Below are positions 56,610-64,000 of a DNA stretch of 64,000 nt, one piece after another. The translations under genes and the position numbers were made by a program. Source of the DNA: Aggregatimonas sangjinii. GTDB taxonomy: Bacteria > Bacteroidota > Bacteroidia > Flavobacteriales > Flavobacteriaceae. Numbering within the stretch: the first letter of the stretch is position 1; each line of letters begins with the position of its first letter. The DNA is taken from the NCBI RefSeq assembly GCF_005943945.1, contig NZ_CP040710.1:2305001-2369000 (forward strand), in the 5' to 3' direction. The notes beneath the pieces were generated by a model that was given only the letters and a program-made list of their open reading frames with translations, had not been told where the DNA came from and made no database searches.

Positions 56610-58199
56610 TTACTCCTTTAGCGTAGGGTACTCCACTCCCAATTGCTCCAAATACGAATCGTATTTGGTTTCGTCGTAATAAAATTGTTCCAGCTGAGCA
56701 CGAAATTCCTCTTGCTTGTCCGTATTGAGATAAATCGGCGGCATGTCGTTCTCCGAAATCATGGGAACAAACTTGGTTTCTTTGGTCTGCTCGTTACTGA
56801 AATACTCCCAAGCATCCTTTAAGAGACCCGGTTGCAATAGAAAATCCAAAATAGTCATGGCTTCGGCCTTCGCCCCTGCCACGACACCTTTGTGCGCTAT
56901 AGGAGTTGCCATTGAAATGGCATTGCTCCAGTGGTGCCCTTGTAAGCCGGGAATGTTGGAGGGAAAACGCATGGTAACCGTTGGCACCTTCCATGAAATA
57001 TCCCCGATATCGTCCGAGCCACCGCTCACCGGATTAACCACGGGCAAGCCCAAGGGCGCAAGTTTCGTGGCCAAACCATCAAGGCTATCGGATTCCACTT
57101 CAGTTTGAACTGCTTTCGCTAAGGCTTGGTCATCTTCGGACCACTGTGGCAAACCGACCTTTTTGATGTTTTCGTACATGGTTTCGGCAATGACCTTATT
57201 GAAATGTCTTGGCCAAGCTGCACCCAATATCTTGGATTTCATGGTCGTCCCGGTCATTAGGGCAGCACCTTTGGCGATGTTATTGGCTTCTTCGTACATT
57301 TCCATAATCCCGTCGTACTTGATATCCCTAAAATAAAACCAGATAGCTGCTTTTGAAGGTACGACATTGGGTTGGTCACCGGCATCGGTAAAAATGGAAT
57401 GCGAACGTTTTAGGGGATGTAGGTGCTCCCGCTTGTAATTCCATCCGATATTCATAAGCTCTGCCGCATCCAAAGCACTTCTTCCGCGCCACGGAGCACC
57501 CGCCGAGTGAGCAGATTCCCCTTCAAAAGAGTATTCCACGGAAATCAATCCCGTTCCCCTCGCCGGGCCATAGGAGACCGTAAAATTATTACTCACGTGG
57601 GTAAAGACGCACATATCGATGTCATCGAAGAGTCCGTCGCGCACATACCACGCTTTGGCCGCTACCAATTCTTCCGCAATGCCCGGCCACACCAAAAGCG
57701 TTCCCCCGATGTTTTCTCTTTCCATGATCTGCTTGACCGCCAATACGGCCGAAATATTCAAAGGGATTCCGGCGTTGTGCCCTTCGCCGTGACCCGGTGC
57801 TCCGTCCACCAAAGGTTTATGATACGCCACCCCAGGATACTGTGATGCTTTCGGAATACAGTCGACATCGCTTCCGATAGCAATGACCGGTCCTTCACCA
57901 TTGTCCCATTTGGCAAACCAGGCCGTCGGGATTCCGGAAATGGAATGTTCTATTTCAAAACCATTCTTTTCCAATATGCCCGTAAGATATTTGGAGGACT
58001 CGACTTCCTGAAAACCCAGCTCCGCAAAACTGAACACCTTGTCGACCATTACTTGGGCTTGCTTCTTATTGGTCTCAACGATTGCCGCAGCTTCGGCCTT
58101 TATTTTTTCTATCTGTTTTTTGGAATATTTTTTCTGGGCCTGTACAGAGGCCACAAAAATTATACAGGCGGCCGTCATTAAAATTCTGGACATTTTCAT
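56610..58199 (-). CDS. Exported M20-family amidohydrolase (AbgB-like)
   Basis: The 529-residue protein has a signal peptide (cleavage after SVQAQ). The M20 metallopeptidase fold shows VIAIGSDVDCIPKASQYPGV, the metal segment GAPGHGEGHNAGIPLNISAV, WPGIAEELVAAKAW (catalytic Glu-Glu) and a dimerisation domain. VNPVSGGSDDIGDISWKVPT and LQGHHWSNAISMATPIAHKG complete the site. It resembles p-aminobenzoyl-glutamate hydrolase subunit B and other amidohydrolases that cleave N-acyl or peptide-like amides; the natural substrate is unknown. It is longer than typical cytosolic members (about 480) because of the signal and an extended C terminus. Single gene. Confidence 0.88.
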   Translation of the reverse strand: MKMSRILMTAACIIFVASVQAQKKYSKKQIEKIKAEAAAIVETNKKQAQVMVDKVFSFAELGFQEVESSKYLTGILEKNGFEIEHSISGIPTAWFAKWDNGEGPVIAIGSDVDCIPKASQYPGVAYHKPLVDGAPGHGEGHNAGIPLNISAVLAVKQIMERENIGGTLLVWPGIAEELVAAKAWYVRDGLFDDIDMCVFTHVSNNFTVSYGPARGTGLISVEYSFEGESAHSAGAPWRGRSALDAAELMNIGWNYKREHLHPLKRSHSIFTDAGDQPNVVPSKAAIWFYFRDIKYDGIMEMYEEANNIAKGAALMTGTTMKSKILGAAWPRHFNKVIAETMYENIKKVGLPQWSEDDQALAKAVQTEVESDSLDGLATKLAPLGLPVVNPVSGGSDDIGDISWKVPTVTMRFPSNIPGLQGHHWSNAISMATPIAHKGVVAGAKAEAMTILDFLLQPGLLKDAWEYFSNEQTKETKFVPMISENDMPPIYLNTDKQEEFRAQLEQFYYDETKYDSYLEQLGVEYPTLKE

Positions 58200-58395
58200 A
58201 AGGTCGGGCTTTTTTTGAATTCGCTAGTGTCTAAAGTATGAAAACAATCGGTAAGTTGGTGGCCGTATAACCGTAATATATACAATATCGCTTCCCTTAC
58301 CGAATGCGTGTATATGGTTCCTGTAGGATAGGCTATTCTTTTTAGCTTTATTCCAAGGATTGGCTATCTTTATTGAATTTAATCAATTGGTACCA

Positions 58396-58764
58396 ATGAA
58401 AAAAATACTGTTCTTATTACTTGTTACAGCTACCACCTCCTGTATTATGTTACAAGAAAAAGGCATTGCCTTTAAAATCACGAACAACTCAGGGTCGGCG
58501 ATTACCGGTGTAAAAATCGCCACCTCGGAAAATTTGGACAGTATCACTTTTGAGCACATTGCAAAGCGCGACAGTCGAGAAGGTTTTTTATCCATGAAAA
58601 ACAATAAAACGGATGGTTCTTACACCTTGGCGTTTAAAGATAGGGATGGAAACGTTAAGGGAGTTTCCACTGGTTACTATACCAATGGGAATAGTTTAGA
58701 CAGTTATATTCGCTTTGAGATACAAAAAGATACTACCTTGGTTAAATTTGGAGAATTTCCCTAA
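58396..58764 (+). CDS. Small lipoprotein of unknown function
   Basis: From the ATG at 58396 the product has 122 residues and a lipobox (ATTSC). A small beta-rich domain resembles a fibronectin-like or C2-like sandwich (GIAFKITNNSGSAITGVKIA, GFLSMKNNKTDGSYTLAFKD, YIRFEIQKDTTLVKFGEFP). I do not recognise a family. It has no close operon partner; the amidohydrolase gene is divergent 196 bases upstream. Confidence 0.6.
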   Translation: MKKILFLLLVTATTSCIMLQEKGIAFKITNNSGSAITGVKIATSENLDSITFEHIAKRDSREGFLSMKNNKTDGSYTLAFKDRDGNVKGVSTGYYTNGNSLDSYIRFEIQKDTTLVKFGEFP

Positions 58765-58921
58765 CTAAGCAGCACTCAATGATTCTCGCCGTGTGGTCAG
58801 TACCCGACGTTAGGAACTTTTTACAATCCTTTGGAAAAATATAGAAAAAGACCTGAATTTATACTACCTTAAAACTAAGCTGAATACTTCTTCTCGTTTT
58901 ATCGAATTTTAAAAAAATAGC

Positions 58922-60058
58922 ATGCCACTACGCCCATTCAGATTACAAATTCCATTCCTTCTAGTAATACTTCTCATTTTTAATAGCTGCGCTAGTAGTG
59001 ATGAAACCAACGAAGAGGCGGAAATCGGTGGACCAATTGCCACGGATATTTCCGTAACATCGGCTGAAACTTTGATTTTATGGATCGATGCTGCCGATTT
59101 AACATTAAAATTGAGCAATGCCCTAAGCTACTCATACGGCGTTGCGTCTGAGAGCGATACGGAAAAACTTCAAAGCTTTAACGCCGATACCACTCAGGTT
59201 ACCGCTTCAATAGCTTTTAAAGCCGCGGCGCAAGGTGATTACAACGATACGAATACATCGAATAATTCAACTACTATTGCCCTTGAAAAAGAGGTTGAAA
59301 CTTCGAACCCTATAAGTGTTCTACTAAGTGCCGATGGGCCTGGAAACACCTATGACCTGATTACTTCGGTACTCGCACCTGGTCATGATCCCATTGAAGT
59401 TCCAGATTGTAATCACGCTGCATTCGGCGAACATATTGATGAGCTTTTCGATACCGAGTTAAATGCGAATGTCTTTCGATTTTACATACATACGACACCC
59501 GACAATGACCGCTGTATTAATTTTGACCGACAACGCAATGAAATAAAAACCTATGACCGATCCCCCGATAATTTATTGGGTATGGAAAACGAAACGGTTG
59601 AATACAAATGGAAATTTAAACTGGCTGCAGGTTTTCAAGCCTCACCGAATTTTACCCATTTGCATCAATTGAAGTCCGTGGGAGGCTCTTTAGAAAGCAT
59701 GCCCATGTACACCCTTACAGCAAGAAAAGGGACCCCTGATCGATTGGAGCTACGTTATGCCGAAACCGATGACCAGGAGACGGTTGCACAAACCGACCTG
59801 GCACCACTAACAGATACCTGGCTTGAAGTTACCGAAACCATAACTTATGCCACATCGGGCACATACGCAATCGAAATAAAAAATGTAGCTGACGGTACTG
59901 TTCTGTTTGAATATTCTAATGGCTCCATCGTCAATTGGAGACCTGGGGGAAGTTTTGTCAGACCAAAATGGGGCATTTACAGGAGTTTATTGAATGACCA
60001 AGACCTCCGGGACGAAGAGGTATTATTTGCGGATTTTAGCATAACGGAAATCGAGTAG
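58922..60058 (+). CDS. Lipoprotein with polysaccharide-lyase-like jelly-roll domain
   Basis: The 378-residue lipoprotein (lipobox FNSCA, Cys23) has an N-terminal BIG-like linker (about 40-125) and a C-terminal domain of about 240 residues. Its strings CINFDRQRNEIKTYDRSPDN, VEYKWKFKLAAGFQASPNFT, LHQLKSVGGSLESMPMYTLT and RPKWGIYRSLLNDQDLRDEE resemble beta-jelly-roll polysaccharide lyases (PL20 or PL28-like) acting on uronic-acid polymers. The RxNEIK and HLHQLK segments would lie at the active cleft. No SusC/D pair or other CAZyme is adjacent, so the substrate is unknown. Lyase versus lectin cannot be settled here. Confidence 0.6.
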   Translation: MPLRPFRLQIPFLLVILLIFNSCASSDETNEEAEIGGPIATDISVTSAETLILWIDAADLTLKLSNALSYSYGVASESDTEKLQSFNADTTQVTASIAFKAAAQGDYNDTNTSNNSTTIALEKEVETSNPISVLLSADGPGNTYDLITSVLAPGHDPIEVPDCNHAAFGEHIDELFDTELNANVFRFYIHTTPDNDRCINFDRQRNEIKTYDRSPDNLLGMENETVEYKWKFKLAAGFQASPNFTHLHQLKSVGGSLESMPMYTLTARKGTPDRLELRYAETDDQETVAQTDLAPLTDTWLEVTETITYATSGTYAIEIKNVADGTVLFEYSNGSIVNWRPGGSFVRPKWGIYRSLLNDQDLRDEEVLFADFSITEIE

Positions 60059-60201
60059 CAGCGCCATTGATTAGGTATAAAAGAGTTGTAACTTTTTAGC
60101 GCTTGGCGAATAATCATCTCCATAAAATTCCATTTTCATTTTATCAACACCCTCCGTTCAAAACTGTTTTAAATCCATCAGAAAAAGGTGCGAAAAAGAT
60201 G

Positions 60202-60209
60202 TAATTTTG
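60202..60209 (+). promoter_or_regulatory. Putative -7 box of purL
   Basis: TAATTTTG fits TAnnTTTG and lies 33 bases before the purL ATG at 60243. No clear -33 partner is seen. Confidence 0.5.
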
Positions 60210-60242
60210 CGACTTTATTAATCATTCCAACCCAGTCGCCAA

Positions 60243-63200
60243 ATGATTCATTTTTTCGGAGAGCAAACCGCAAAAGTTTTTGCAGTTCAAACAGAGGCAT
60301 CACTTTCTCAGGAAGACATCAAAAAATTAACTTGGTTATTTGCTTGTCCTGAACTTGTTTCAGGTGCAAACAACAAACCGCTGGCGTCTCTTGACGCCTT
60401 TTTTATTGGGCCTCGTGCCGCGATGGTTACTCCCTGGAGTACCAATGCCACCGAAATCACCCAAAATATGGGTATTTCGGGTATAATTCGTATCGAGGAG
60501 TTTCAAGCGGTCGATGAAGCCTTCACCGATTTCGACCCCATGCTATCCCAAAAGTATACCGGGCTCACCCAAGATATCTTTACCGTTGCCATACAGCCGG
60601 AAGCTATTTTGGAAATCGATGACATCGCTGCCTATAATGACCAGGAAGGTTTGGCGCTCAACGATGAGGAAGTAGCGTATCTCAATGGACTATCGACTAA
60701 ACTGGGTCGAAAATTGACCGATTCAGAGGTCTTTGGGTTTAGTCAGGTCAACTCTGAACACTGCCGCCATAAAATTTTCAACGGTACCTTTGTCATTGAT
60801 GGCGAGGAGATGCCTACCTCTCTTTTCAAGATGATCAAAGAAACGTCGAAACAGCACCCGAACGACATCGTTTCGGCCTACAAAGACAATGTGGCTTTTG
60901 TAGTAGGTCCGACCGTGGTGCAATTTGCGCCCAAAACAGCGGACAAACCCGATTTTTATCAAGAATCCGAATTTGATTCGGTGATTTCCTTAAAAGCTGA
61001 AACCCATAATTTCCCCACAACTGTAGAACCCTTTAATGGTGCCGCCACCGGCTCCGGAGGTGAAATACGAGATCGTCTGGCTGGGGGAAAAGGCTCCTTG
61101 CCTTTAGCAGGAACAGCAGTATACATGACCGCTTACTCACGCCTGGAAGAAACTTCCGAATCCGCTCCCTCCGAATCCGCTCAGGGAACGCAGGATAAGA
61201 AGTCTAGACCATGGGAAAACGCAATGCCGGCTCGCGAATGGCTCTACCAAACCCCAACGGATATTTTGATAAAAGCCTCCAATGGCGCATCGGACTTTGG
61301 TAATAAGTTCGGGCAACCTTTAATCTGTGGCTCGGTGTTGACTTTTGAACATGATGAGGCCTCCGTGCCCTTCGACTCCCCTCAGGGTACAGAGACTTCG
61401 GAGATTAGGGCCCTGAGCGAAGCCGAAGGGTCAAACAATCTAGATTCCAAAGAGGTCTCGACTGCGCTCGACCGGACAGTTGGAAGAAGATTGGCCTACG
61501 ACAAAGTCATCATGCAAGCCGGTGGTATCGGTTACGGGAAGGCGGAACAAGCCTTGAAAGACACGCCAAAAACAGGCGATAAAATCGTCATCCTGGGCGG
61601 TGACAACTACCGTATCGGAATGGGTGGTGCAGCGGTCTCCAGTGCCGATACCGGTGAATTCAGTTCGGCGATCGAATTAAATGCTGTGCAACGATCGAAT
61701 CCCGAAATGCAAAAACGGGCCGCCAATGCCATTCGCGGAATGGTGGAGAATGATAAAAATCCCATTGTATCCATTCACGACCATGGTGCGGGCGGACATC
61801 TCAACTGCCTATCGGAATTGGTCGAAGACACTGGCGGTAAGATAGATTTGGATAAATTGCCTATAGGCGACCCTACCCTATCCGCCAAGGAGATCATCGG
61901 GAACGAATCGCAAGAACGTATGGGCCTCGTAATCGGTAAAAAGGATATCGATTTGCTCCAACGAATAGCGGAACGGGAACGTTCCCCTATGTACAAGGTC
62001 GGGGACGTGACCGGAGACGACCGCTTCACGTTCGAATCCCAAACGACTGGTGAAAAACCGATGGATGTAAACCTTTCCGACATTTTTGGAAGTTCCCCAA
62101 AGACCATCCTGACCGACAACACCGTAGACAGAACGTACAAAGATGCGGAGTACTCCTTGGAGTTCTTTCATGACTATTTGGAACAAGTATTACAATTAGA
62201 GGCCGTGGCCTGTAAAGATTGGCTCACCAATAAAGTGGACCGATGCGTGGGCGGACGTGTTGCGAAACAACAGTGTGCAGGTCCGCTTCAATTGCCATTG
62301 AACAATGTTGGGGTGATGGCCTTGGATTTTAAAGGGACAGAGGGCATTGCGACCAGTATTGGCCACTCCCCTATTTCAGCCCTTATCGACCCCGCGGCGG
62401 GAAGTAAGAACAGTATTGCCGAGGCGCTGACGAATATCATTTGGGCCCCTTTGAAAGACGGACTGAAATCCGTTTCGCTATCCGCCAATTGGATGTGGCC
62501 TTGTAGAAACGAGGGTGAAGATGCTAGGCTTTACAAGGCCGTCAAGGCCATTTCCGACTTCTCGATTGCGTTGGGTATCAATGTGCCCACTGGCAAGGAT
62601 TCCCTTTCCATGAAACAGAAATACAAAAATGGGGAGGTCATCAGTCCGGGTACCGTTATTATTTCCGCTGCTGGAAATTGCAACGACATGACCAAAGTGG
62701 TCGAACCTGTGTTGCAAAAAGACGGTGGGGATATCTATTACATCAACCTGTCAACAGATTCCTATAAACTCGGAGGTTCCTCTTTCGGGCAGGTCCTGAA
62801 CGCGGTGGGAAGCGAAGCCCCTACGATAAAAGACGACGTCTATTTTGCCAACGTTTTCGATACCATTCAAACTCTGATCAAGCAAGGCCAAATCATTGCC
62901 GGCCACGACATTGCCTCTGGCGGTTTAATTACCACGCTGCTGGAATTGTGTTTTGCGGATATCGACCTAGGAGCGGAATTCGATTTATCCGATTTGGGCG
63001 AATCGGATACCGTAAAACTCCTATTTTCAGAGAACGCGGGCATCGTTTTTCAAGTTCACCCTCATGCATATCAGGATCTTGAACAAATCTTGGATGACGC
63101 CAAAATAGACTACAAAAAAATAGGCAAAGCAACTTCGAAAGCGGAAGTCACCATCAAGAATGGCGGTATGGAAATGGGTTTAAATGTTTCATCCTTAAGG

Positions 63201-64000
63201 GATACTTGGTTCAAGACCTCTTATTTGTTGGACAATAAGCAAACGGCAAAGGGTCTGGCAAAAGACCGCTTTGATAATTATAAGGAGCAACCGTTGCAAT
63301 ACAAGTTCCCAAGCCAATTCACTGGTAAGAATGTTACCCTGAACTTGTCGAAGGGTAGACCCAAAGCAGCCATACTAAGAGAAAAAGGCAGTAATTCCGA
63401 ACGGGAAATGGCCAATGCAATGTACCTGGCCGGCTTTGATGTAAAGGACGTACACATGACCGATTTGATCTCTGGCAGGGAGACATTGGAGGACATCCAA
63501 TTTTTAGGTGCCGTAGGCGGATTTTCGAACTCCGATGTACTAGGCAGTGCCAAAGGTTGGGCGGGAGCCATCAAATACAATGAAAAGGCCAATGCGGTCA
63601 TCAAAAATTTCTTTGCACGACCCGATACACTCTCTATCGGCATTTGTAATGGGTGTCAATTGTTTATGGAATTGGATCTCATCAATCCGGAACATGAAAT
63701 TCACGGTAAGATGACCTACAACGACAGTCATAAGCATGAAAGTAATTTTACATCGGTCAACATACAGGAAAACAATTCGGTTATGCTATCGAGCTTGGCA
63801 GGCACTACGCTAGGTGTTTGGATTTCACATGGGGAAGGTAAATTTGTACTTCCCAACTCCGAGGACAGCTACGACATTGTGGCCAAATATGGTTATTCGG
63901 GCTATCCGGCCAATCCGAATGGAAGCGATTTCAATACGGCCATGCTCTGCGACTCCACTGGCCGCCACTTGGTGACCATGCCGCATATCGAGCGTTCTAC
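60243..64000 (+). CDS. purL: Phosphoribosylformylglycinamidine synthase (large form), 3' end outside window
   Basis: An open frame of 1252 codons from the ATG at 60243 runs off the right edge. It has the order of large PurL: N-terminal PurS-like part, FGFSQVNSEHCRHKIFNGTF, SLKAETHNFPTTVEPFNGAA, GSGGEIRDRLAGG, first and second ATP-binding halves (SIHDHGAGGHLN, VPTGKDSLSMKQKY, GHDIASGGLITTLLE). The C-terminal glutaminase follows with the nucleophile in IGICNGCQLF and the late WISHGEGKFVLP, VTMPHIERST. By comparison with E. coli PurL (1295) only about 20-30 residues are missing. It makes FGAM for purine synthesis. Its frame contains in-frame palindromic inserts, listed separately. Confidence 0.96.
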   Translation, partial: MIHFFGEQTAKVFAVQTEASLSQEDIKKLTWLFACPELVSGANNKPLASLDAFFIGPRAAMVTPWSTNATEITQNMGISGIIRIEEFQAVDEAFTDFDPMLSQKYTGLTQDIFTVAIQPEAILEIDDIAAYNDQEGLALNDEEVAYLNGLSTKLGRKLTDSEVFGFSQVNSEHCRHKIFNGTFVIDGEEMPTSLFKMIKETSKQHPNDIVSAYKDNVAFVVGPTVVQFAPKTADKPDFYQESEFDSVISLKAETHNFPTTVEPFNGAATGSGGEIRDRLAGGKGSLPLAGTAVYMTAYSRLEETSESAPSESAQGTQDKKSRPWENAMPAREWLYQTPTDILIKASNGASDFGNKFGQPLICGSVLTFEHDEASVPFDSPQGTETSEIRALSEAEGSNNLDSKEVSTALDRTVGRRLAYDKVIMQAGGIGYGKAEQALKDTPKTGDKIVILGGDNYRIGMGGAAVSSADTGEFSSAIELNAVQRSNPEMQKRAANAIRGMVENDKNPIVSIHDHGAGGHLNCLSELVEDTGGKIDLDKLPIGDPTLSAKEIIGNESQERMGLVIGKKDIDLLQRIAERERSPMYKVGDVTGDDRFTFESQTTGEKPMDVNLSDIFGSSPKTILTDNTVDRTYKDAEYSLEFFHDYLEQVLQLEAVACKDWLTNKVDRCVGGRVAKQQCAGPLQLPLNNVGVMALDFKGTEGIATSIGHSPISALIDPAAGSKNSIAEALTNIIWAPLKDGLKSVSLSANWMWPCRNEGEDARLYKAVKAISDFSIALGINVPTGKDSLSMKQKYKNGEVISPGTVIISAAGNCNDMTKVVEPVLQKDGGDIYYINLSTDSYKLGGSSFGQVLNAVGSEAPTIKDDVYFANVFDTIQTLIKQGQIIAGHDIASGGLITTLLELCFADIDLGAEFDLSDLGESDTVKLLFSENAGIVFQVHPHAYQDLEQILDDAKIDYKKIGKATSKAEVTIKNGGMEMGLNVSSLRDTWFKTSYLLDNKQTAKGLAKDRFDNYKEQPLQYKFPSQFTGKNVTLNLSKGRPKAAILREKGSNSEREMANAMYLAGFDVKDVHMTDLISGRETLEDIQFLGAVGGFSNSDVLGSAKGWAGAIKYNEKANAVIKNFFARPDTLSIGICNGCQLFMELDLINPEHEIHGKMTYNDSHKHESNFTSVNIQENNSVMLSSLAGTTLGVWISHGEGKFVLPNSEDSYDIVAKYGYSGYPANPNGSDFNTAMLCDSTGRHLVTMPHIERS
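60348..60364. repeat. CCTGAACTTGTTTCAGG palindrome inside purL
   Basis: The 17-base near-palindrome is read as PELVSG in the purL frame, within an N-terminal stretch (CPELVSGANNKPL) that is longer than I expect for this family. The word CTGAACTTGTTTCAG is one I know as a frequent intergenic palindrome of Bacteroidota. Confidence 0.75.
61155..61204. repeat. Inserted repeat in purL with tandem TCCGAATCCGCT
   Basis: Two copies of TCCGAATCCGCT (61155-61166 and 61170-61181) precede CAGGGAACGCAGG. The frame reads TSESAPSESAQGTQDKKS between SRLEE and RPWENAMP, which I expect to be nearly adjacent in related PurL. It resembles half of the CTTCGACTCCGCTCAGGGAA-type palindrome. Confidence 0.7.
61368..61430. 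repeat. Inverted-repeat element inside purL
   Basis: Arms CCCTTCGACTCCCCTCAGGG (61368-61387) and CCCTGAGCGAAGCCGAAGGG (61411-61430) are complementary at 17 of 20 positions around a 23-base centre. They encode PFDSPQGTETSEIRALSEAE in frame, between FEHDE and GRRLAYDKVIM of purL. Confidence 0.88.
61455..61477. repeat. TCTCGACTGCGCTCGACCGGACA word inside purL
   Basis: A GTCTCGACTGCGCTCGAC near-palindrome follows the previous element by 25 bases. It is a third type of intergenic repeat word familiar from Bacteroidota, again read in frame (VSTALDRT). Confidence 0.7.

Follow-up and report, generated by a model that had tools for sequence, protein, structure and literature searches.

In-frame inserts in purL of Aggregatimonas sangjinii

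The window, a stretch of 64,000 nucleotides from the forward strand of the Aggregatimonas sangjinii contig NZ_CP040710.1, ends within purL, which encodes the large type of phosphoribosylformylglycinamidine synthase. The purL frame spans 1252 amino acids with its 3' end open in the window and is intact in the genome (label G000; one contig, 4.72 Mb), where it comprises 1288 codons for 1288 amino acids (locus L055) and is the single purL match in a genus search. Alignment with the PurL proteins of nine congeners reveals three inserts particular to the window, which harbor palindromic motifs that we refer to as REP elements. The names REP1 to REP4 were coined in this analysis. The features are as follows.

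60243 to 64000, forward: purL, running past the window end (NF003672, 1405 bits)
60345 to 60371, forward: site A insert, CPELVSGAN, net about +6 residues, with REP2 CCTGAACTTGTTTCAGG inside at 60348-60364
61152 to 61202, forward: site B insert, TSESAPSESAQGTQDKK, +17 residues, with a degraded minus-strand REP1 at 61168-61185 (2 mismatches)
61359 to 61484, forward: site C insert between FEH and RRLAYDKV, net +40 residues, with two REP1 copies and one REP4 copy; edges approximate
61368 to 61387, reverse: REP1 copy at site C, left arm of an inverted pair, encoding PFDSPQG (match 61369-61386, 1 mismatch)
61411 to 61430, forward: REP1 copy at site C, right arm of the inverted pair, encoding ALSEAEG (match 61412-61429, 0 mismatches)
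61455 to 61477, reverse: REP4 copy GGTCTCGACTGCGCTCGACCGGA at site C, encoding VSTALD, with TCTCGACTGCGCTCGA exact within these bounds

An earlier note on this DNA had claimed that one open purL frame runs through four repeat-like segments of three different types, and we found all four at the coordinates given there (60348-60364, 61155-61204, 61368-61430 and 61455-61477) and identified them as REP1, REP2 and REP4. The 20-base arms between 61368 and 61430, described there as complementary at 17 of 20 positions, gave the same count by eye and form the inverted REP1 pair. The note's lengths of about 10, 19 and 45 residues do not stand, since the net gains over the nine congeners are about +6 at site A, +17 at site B and +40 at site C. 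Site A (WLF^ACPELVSGA) gained about nine residues and lost three. The inserted residues are not conserved among relatives, as the note had supposed: they are absent from all nine congeners and from most of the 119 PurL proteins described below. Two congeners (G006 and G009) have separate inserts of 7 residues at site C. Placement in Flavobacteriaceae rests on relatives whose purL is identical to named contigs, and among the congeners G001 matches Pelagihabitans pacificus (L225).

Dinucleotide shuffles of the 64-kb window predict far fewer motifs than it contains: 3 copies of REP1 were found versus 0.16 expected, 1 of REP4 versus 0.00, and 2 of REP2 versus 0.11, the sole exact REP2 match being the purL copy at 60349-60363. 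By eye, the REP4 copy of site C shares 27 identical bases with a second genomic copy (locus L049). By folding energy, the inserts of the window do not stand out from dinucleotide shuffles (z of -0.93 for site B and -0.43 for site C).

Dispersed REP families and other genes with in-frame REPs

The insert words recur across the genome, as the earlier note had anticipated. Using the core patterns CTGAGCGNAGYCGAAG for REP1, CTGAACTTGTTTCAG for REP2, TCTCGACTGCGCTCGA for REP4 and GTCATTGCGAnnnnnnTGAAGCAATC... for REP3, we counted 32 copies of REP1 at up to 2 mismatches (reversed pattern, 0), 12 of REP4 at up to 1 mismatch (reversed, 0) and 12 of REP2 at up to 1 mismatch (reversed, 3). REPs are short repeats, of 20 to 40 bp, with many dispersed copies in a genome; the present families fit this, in tens of copies, not hundreds. 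A CGTC or TGTC tag at one end marks the CGTC-tagged REP superfamily; REP4 has a consensus TGTC upstream of its core, and a check for such tags found none common to REP1 and REP2.

REP1 forms a hairpin with compensatory changes. Two base pairs beside the core are each kept in 26 of 28 distinct copies, compared to shuffle means of 12.2 and 14.0, and none of 2000 shuffles reached 26; the pairs are realized as C-G, A-T, G-C, T-A and G-T. A fourth pair is weakly kept (17/28; reached in 49 of 2000 shuffles), and the third does not exceed chance (10/28; 379 of 2000). The note's description of the words as intergenic in type agrees with the distribution of REP1, since 21 of the 30 copies examined (of 32) lie in no stop-to-stop frame of at least 130 amino acids. 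Eight of the 30 are genic, with three in purL, one in hemW, two in metG and two in hsdM, and one (locus L014) lies in a 139-amino-acid frame that is probably spurious.

The hemW copy (TIGR00539) sits in an insert of +11 residues relative to 7 of 9 congeners, L295 and L300, for which a neighboring ORF had been retrieved, having been left out of the comparison. In hsdM, REP1 occurs at two places where alignment with PDB 3lkd shows 4 and 7 extra residues. Both metG copies lie in the linker preceding the C-terminal tRNA-binding domain. Among the best 30 of 120 genomes by score, this linker contains 18 REP1/REP4 matches, some stretches matching both patterns, with 2 matches outside it and 0 for the reversed control. 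A close variant of GTCACGTCGAGCGCAGTCGAGACGTCT is found in the linker of 8 of the 30 loci.

In metG loci L279, L282, L285 and L288-L292, REP4-like DNA encodes NVTSSAVETS or close variants in a linker that is not longer. This stretch may be a REP that has turned into ordinary linker. An in-frame REP4 also occurs at L043:938-1825, in a protein without an NCBIfam match that we take to be of the GSCFA type.

REP motifs at four PurL sites across Flavobacteriaceae

We aligned 119 PurL proteins, taken from a purL search with matches in 381 genomes of the family and from the genus search. REP motifs are present at four sites, A to D, in 29 of the 119 genes, a proportion that describes an insert-enriched sample and not a population frequency. 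The positives comprise the window itself (1/1), none of the 9 congeners, 17 of the 29 top-scoring loci (a scoring that favors inserts), 5 of the 60 next in listing order, and 6 of a last batch of 20, in which 7 had been picked for long or odd frames and account for 5 of the positives. Site A lies around residue 35, site B around 300, site C around 352 and site D around 980, directly before the conserved RPKAAILREKG. N-terminal tails apart, nearly all inserts of at least 5 residues fall at these sites, with L118 and L129 the only cases elsewhere.

The motifs are strongly concentrated at sites A to D, which account for 4.6% of residues. With 2 mismatches allowed (4 for REP3a and 5 for REP3b), REP1 gave 28 matches at the sites and 1 elsewhere, REP4 16 and 1, and REP3a 5 and 1; two L080 matches are counted for both REP1 and REP4. 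REP2 gave 2 exact matches at the sites and 7 two-mismatch matches elsewhere; we took the latter as chance and used only exact REP2 matches at the sites. A reversed control over all patterns gave 1 match. Five synonymous-codon shuffles produced no REP1 or REP4 at the sites. The REP3a half-motif at 4 mismatches appeared 10 times over the same five shuffles, compared to 5 observed matches, because the encoded peptide constrains so loose a pattern, and the case for REP3 thus rests on its exact copies and its dispersal. REP3 occupies site D in L086 and L089, less exactly in L164 and L169, and site C in L087.

Several REP families, both REP1 orientations and four reading frames are represented at the purL sites. 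Cases identified by eye include Pricia antarctica (L185 = G296), Maribacter sp. 1_MG-2023 (L191), Flagellimonas amoyensis (L201), Hanstruepera neustonica (L228) and Flavobacterium sp. H122 (L249). Copies lying in tandem or nested were also read by eye. By genome, REP1 is repeated in tandem in G215, and Pricia antarctica has an element nested in REP2; by locus, site A of L091 has an element within REP2, and site C of L077 has three tandem REP1 copies plus an inverted one. Inserts of at least 10 residues fold better than control windows (mean z of -1.80, n=25, versus -0.36 for 91 windows; p=1.5e-4).

Filled and empty versions of a site can be compared between close relatives. The commonest site C length is 9 residues (such as EEDARKLGF), the length found in L163, L150, L177 and L178, whereas their near relative L133 has 20; L133 and L163 share 93.3% PurL identity outside the sites. 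At site D, L164 carries REP3 and L150 does not, with 95.7% identity elsewhere in PurL. No target duplication could be defined in these pairs. Some site C inserts (for example, in L082 and L096) contain no recognized REP, and the lengths of sites C and D differ between genes also where REPs are absent.

A phylum search extended the comparison. The REP1, REP3a and REP4 motifs are absent from 13 large PurL proteins of other families among the matches listed, where other-family entries are mostly weak partial matches. Among 21 further PurL proteins of the same family, 6 have motifs at site B or D, as placed by residue number.

Three features of individual purL genes are recorded here. L129 (G214) has a 25-residue insert with a perfect 20-base palindrome, TCCGCTTTCGCGAAAGCGGA, seen by eye, at residue 83, a fifth site. 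Short site D inserts in L159, L141 and L202, which read NPSPKERG, SPSPKERG or PSPLGGGREG, suggest by their sequence yet another repeat family. The purL frame of L170 (G313) is open for just 1015 amino acids and may be broken or misassembled.

Reading frames and protein tolerance

REP1 is translated at the sites in four ways: as LSxxEG (10 cases), as a TERSRS-type (5), as a TSTSLS-type (10) and as an FDSxQ-type peptide (3). The frame containing TGA and the LRLRS frame were each used 0 times in the tally over 119 PurLs. The frame is thus not fixed, and it is the hydrophilic readings that survive, with Ser, Thr, Glu and Arg abundant in the peptides. The alignment indicates that sites A to D tolerate indels, as length changes of any kind survive there. 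The earlier note had placed all inserts at surface loops. Two AlphaFold models built from shallow alignments were poor (mean pLDDT of 60.6 and 53.7), and the variability of the four sites suggests that they may be exposed.

Independence of events and REP supply

We evaluated how often the sites changed state on a tree of 118 PurLs (1151 columns, sites removed, L170 left out), some branches of which are weak. Labels were assigned by the analyst, by eye for L172, L091, site D of L087 and site B of L077, and L099 was omitted. Site C changed state 9 times for forward REP1, 6 times for reverse REP1 and 4 times for REP4. The remaining counts are 3 for REP2 at site A, 3 for REP1 at site B and, at site D, 6 for REP3, 3 for REP1 and 8 for REP4. 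Each recurring motif class thus changed 3 to 9 times, and all labels pooled gave 23 changes for 30 taxa. Because these counts mix gains with losses and depend on weak branches, inheritance followed by loss, or exchange of purL between species, may lie behind part of the pattern. At site C, forward REP1 copies are flanked by common residues (DExxD or similar), and most of them share a length of +11; this might reflect fewer, older events.

Genomes with REP1 or REP4 at the purL sites on the whole also carry more REPs elsewhere. Outside purL, the 26 positive genomes have a median of 26.5 REP1/REP4 core copies, compared to 8 for the other 54 (p=1.6e-6); the set of 80 genomes was chosen by the analyst, 39 of them for inserts, and its members are not mutually independent. 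Several REP-rich genomes lack REP1/4 in purL, for example G220 (52 copies) and G219 (54). Genome G254 has 11 REP3 copies by exact pattern and no REP1/4, and REP3 is the only family in its purL.

Origin of the inserts

We consider it likely that the inserts are REP palindromic elements that entered purL and were retained where PurL tolerates extra residues. REPs would land widely, and most insertions into coding sequence would be harmful and lost. Survivors would be those with a net length divisible by three, a stop-free frame and an indel-tolerant site. The inserts would afterwards decay as spacer, and a resident REP could let neighboring or nested copies build up. Since five of the six REP1 core frames contain no stop, the keeping of the frame is most simply explained by survivorship. 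The earlier note had proposed a mobile palindrome family able to enter genes in frame; the in-frame repeats support this, but they belong to several families, not necessarily one.

Landing could instead be directed or self-reinforcing, with a preferred target sequence or with a resident REP that recombines with or attracts others, so that many types gather at each site. Consistent with this reading are the nested and tandem copies seen by eye (site A of L091, site C of L077, and site C of the window with its REP1, inverted REP1 and REP4) and the reuse of DNA position 1062 in most forward REP1 copies read as LSxxEG at site C. However, the same sites also hold several families, both orientations and REP-free length changes, all of which a filter of tolerance predicts, and the filled and empty pairs show no definable target duplication. 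We consider directed or self-reinforcing landing unlikely. Selection for functional peptides might likewise be read from the hydrophilic, Ser/Thr/Glu/Arg-rich frames in use and from the one REP4-like linker kept as a close variant in 8 of 30 metG loci. Yet the purL peptides are missing from most of the 119 PurLs, the types have no common sequence, and all states of decay occur; for the related proposal of regulatory hairpins in purL, positions 58000 to 64000 contain no Rfam match. We regard a selected function of either kind as very improbable. Slippage-driven expansion of low-complexity sequence that merely resembles repeats would account for the length variation of sites C and D in REP-free genes. 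It does not predict exact 15- to 16-base matches to dispersed families, the 27-base identity with another locus or the failure of synonymous-codon shuffles to yield REP1 or REP4 at the sites. For REP-positive inserts, slippage is already contradicted, and we think it highly improbable, although it may be valid for REP-free inserts such as that of L096.

A more speculative reading, which we offer tentatively and think rather unlikely, is that PurL sites A to D and the MetG linker are standing acceptor sites at which unrelated REPs are repeatedly gained, nested and exchanged, with residents seeding more. If so, such proteins would preserve a history of REP transposition that otherwise goes unseen, and of the REP frames that are tolerated.

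Relation to known intragenic repeats

In-frame REPs are already known from the Rickettsia palindromic elements (RPEs) and from the intragenic repeats of PMC3733652. As described in PMC10969869 and PMC3733652, RPEs comprise several short palindrome families lying in frame in unrelated metabolic genes, with a length of about 150 bp and a conserved encoded peptide. The purL REPs are alike in being short palindromes of several families, in frame and in unrelated metabolic genes, a likeness of behavior alone. They differ from RPEs so described in their units of about 15 to 60 bp, the four frames of REP1, their Flavobacteriaceae hosts and their recurrence at the same sites in one enzyme.

The GTAG/CGTC REPs, by the account in the main text of Di Nocera et al. 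(2013, PMC3733652), are mostly intergenic yet occur as singles, dimers and clusters inside genes. That text lists CGTC repeats for Bacteroidetes, without a dedicated transposase, and reports different REPs at about the same recB site in two Xanthomonas; the words "purL" and "Flavobacter" are absent from it. The same-site recurrence described there thus concerns one gene in two species, whereas in the present case members of several families occupy four sites in many genera. Among the literature matches listed, we found no report of intragenic REPs in purL or in Flavobacteriaceae. What is new is that several REP families repeatedly use the same sites across one bacterial family.

To our knowledge, REP movement is rarely caught. 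PurL serves as a record of tolerated mobile-DNA insertions, acquired apparently many separate times among relatives. As a conserved enzyme that can be aligned, and whose sites are filled in many genomes and empty in others at known divergence, it allows insertions to be dated, element ends to be defined and rates to be compared among genomes. The inserts also offer a natural experiment on how far a large core enzyme tolerates insertions, and they carry the warning that REP-encoded peptides should not be mistaken for conserved protein features.

A REP-associated tyrosine transposase as candidate mover

The earlier note had suggested a search for a REP-associated tyrosine transposase (RAYT). The A. 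sangjinii genome contains one intact RAYT (NF047646) and, adjacent to it, a second match that is broken; no REP1-4 motif occurs in its 3.2-kb locus (L103). The genome resembles REP/RAYT systems in having an intact RAYT and REPs in inverted pairs. It differs in that the RAYT is not flanked by the same REPs, as it would be in a RAYT-mobilized unit (REPtron), and in the weak tie between RAYT number and REP load. Across the 80 genomes, RAYT number correlates with REP1/4 load at a Spearman coefficient of 0.23 (p=0.037), and genomes with and without a RAYT differ at p=0.16. At 37 RAYT loci, 7 REP1/4 copies were found versus 1.73 expected (Poisson, 0.0021), at most 2 per locus, in a count that includes two regions (G385 and G220) picked after REP1 had been noticed nearby. 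Given flanks without REP1-4 and a weak load relation, the RAYT is a weak candidate for the mover of REP1-4.

The RAYT locus (L103:1300-2480; G000:C1 about 2838800-2840000) has palindromes of its own, of the GCTAGCGCTCGTC type by eye. In G385 (L363:2095-3618), a RAYT-like N-terminal domain is fused in one open frame to a second protein, which is presumably HemF (coproporphyrinogen III oxidase). RAYT matches also lie in long open frames of 491 to 508 amino acids in G267, G353, G255 and G165.
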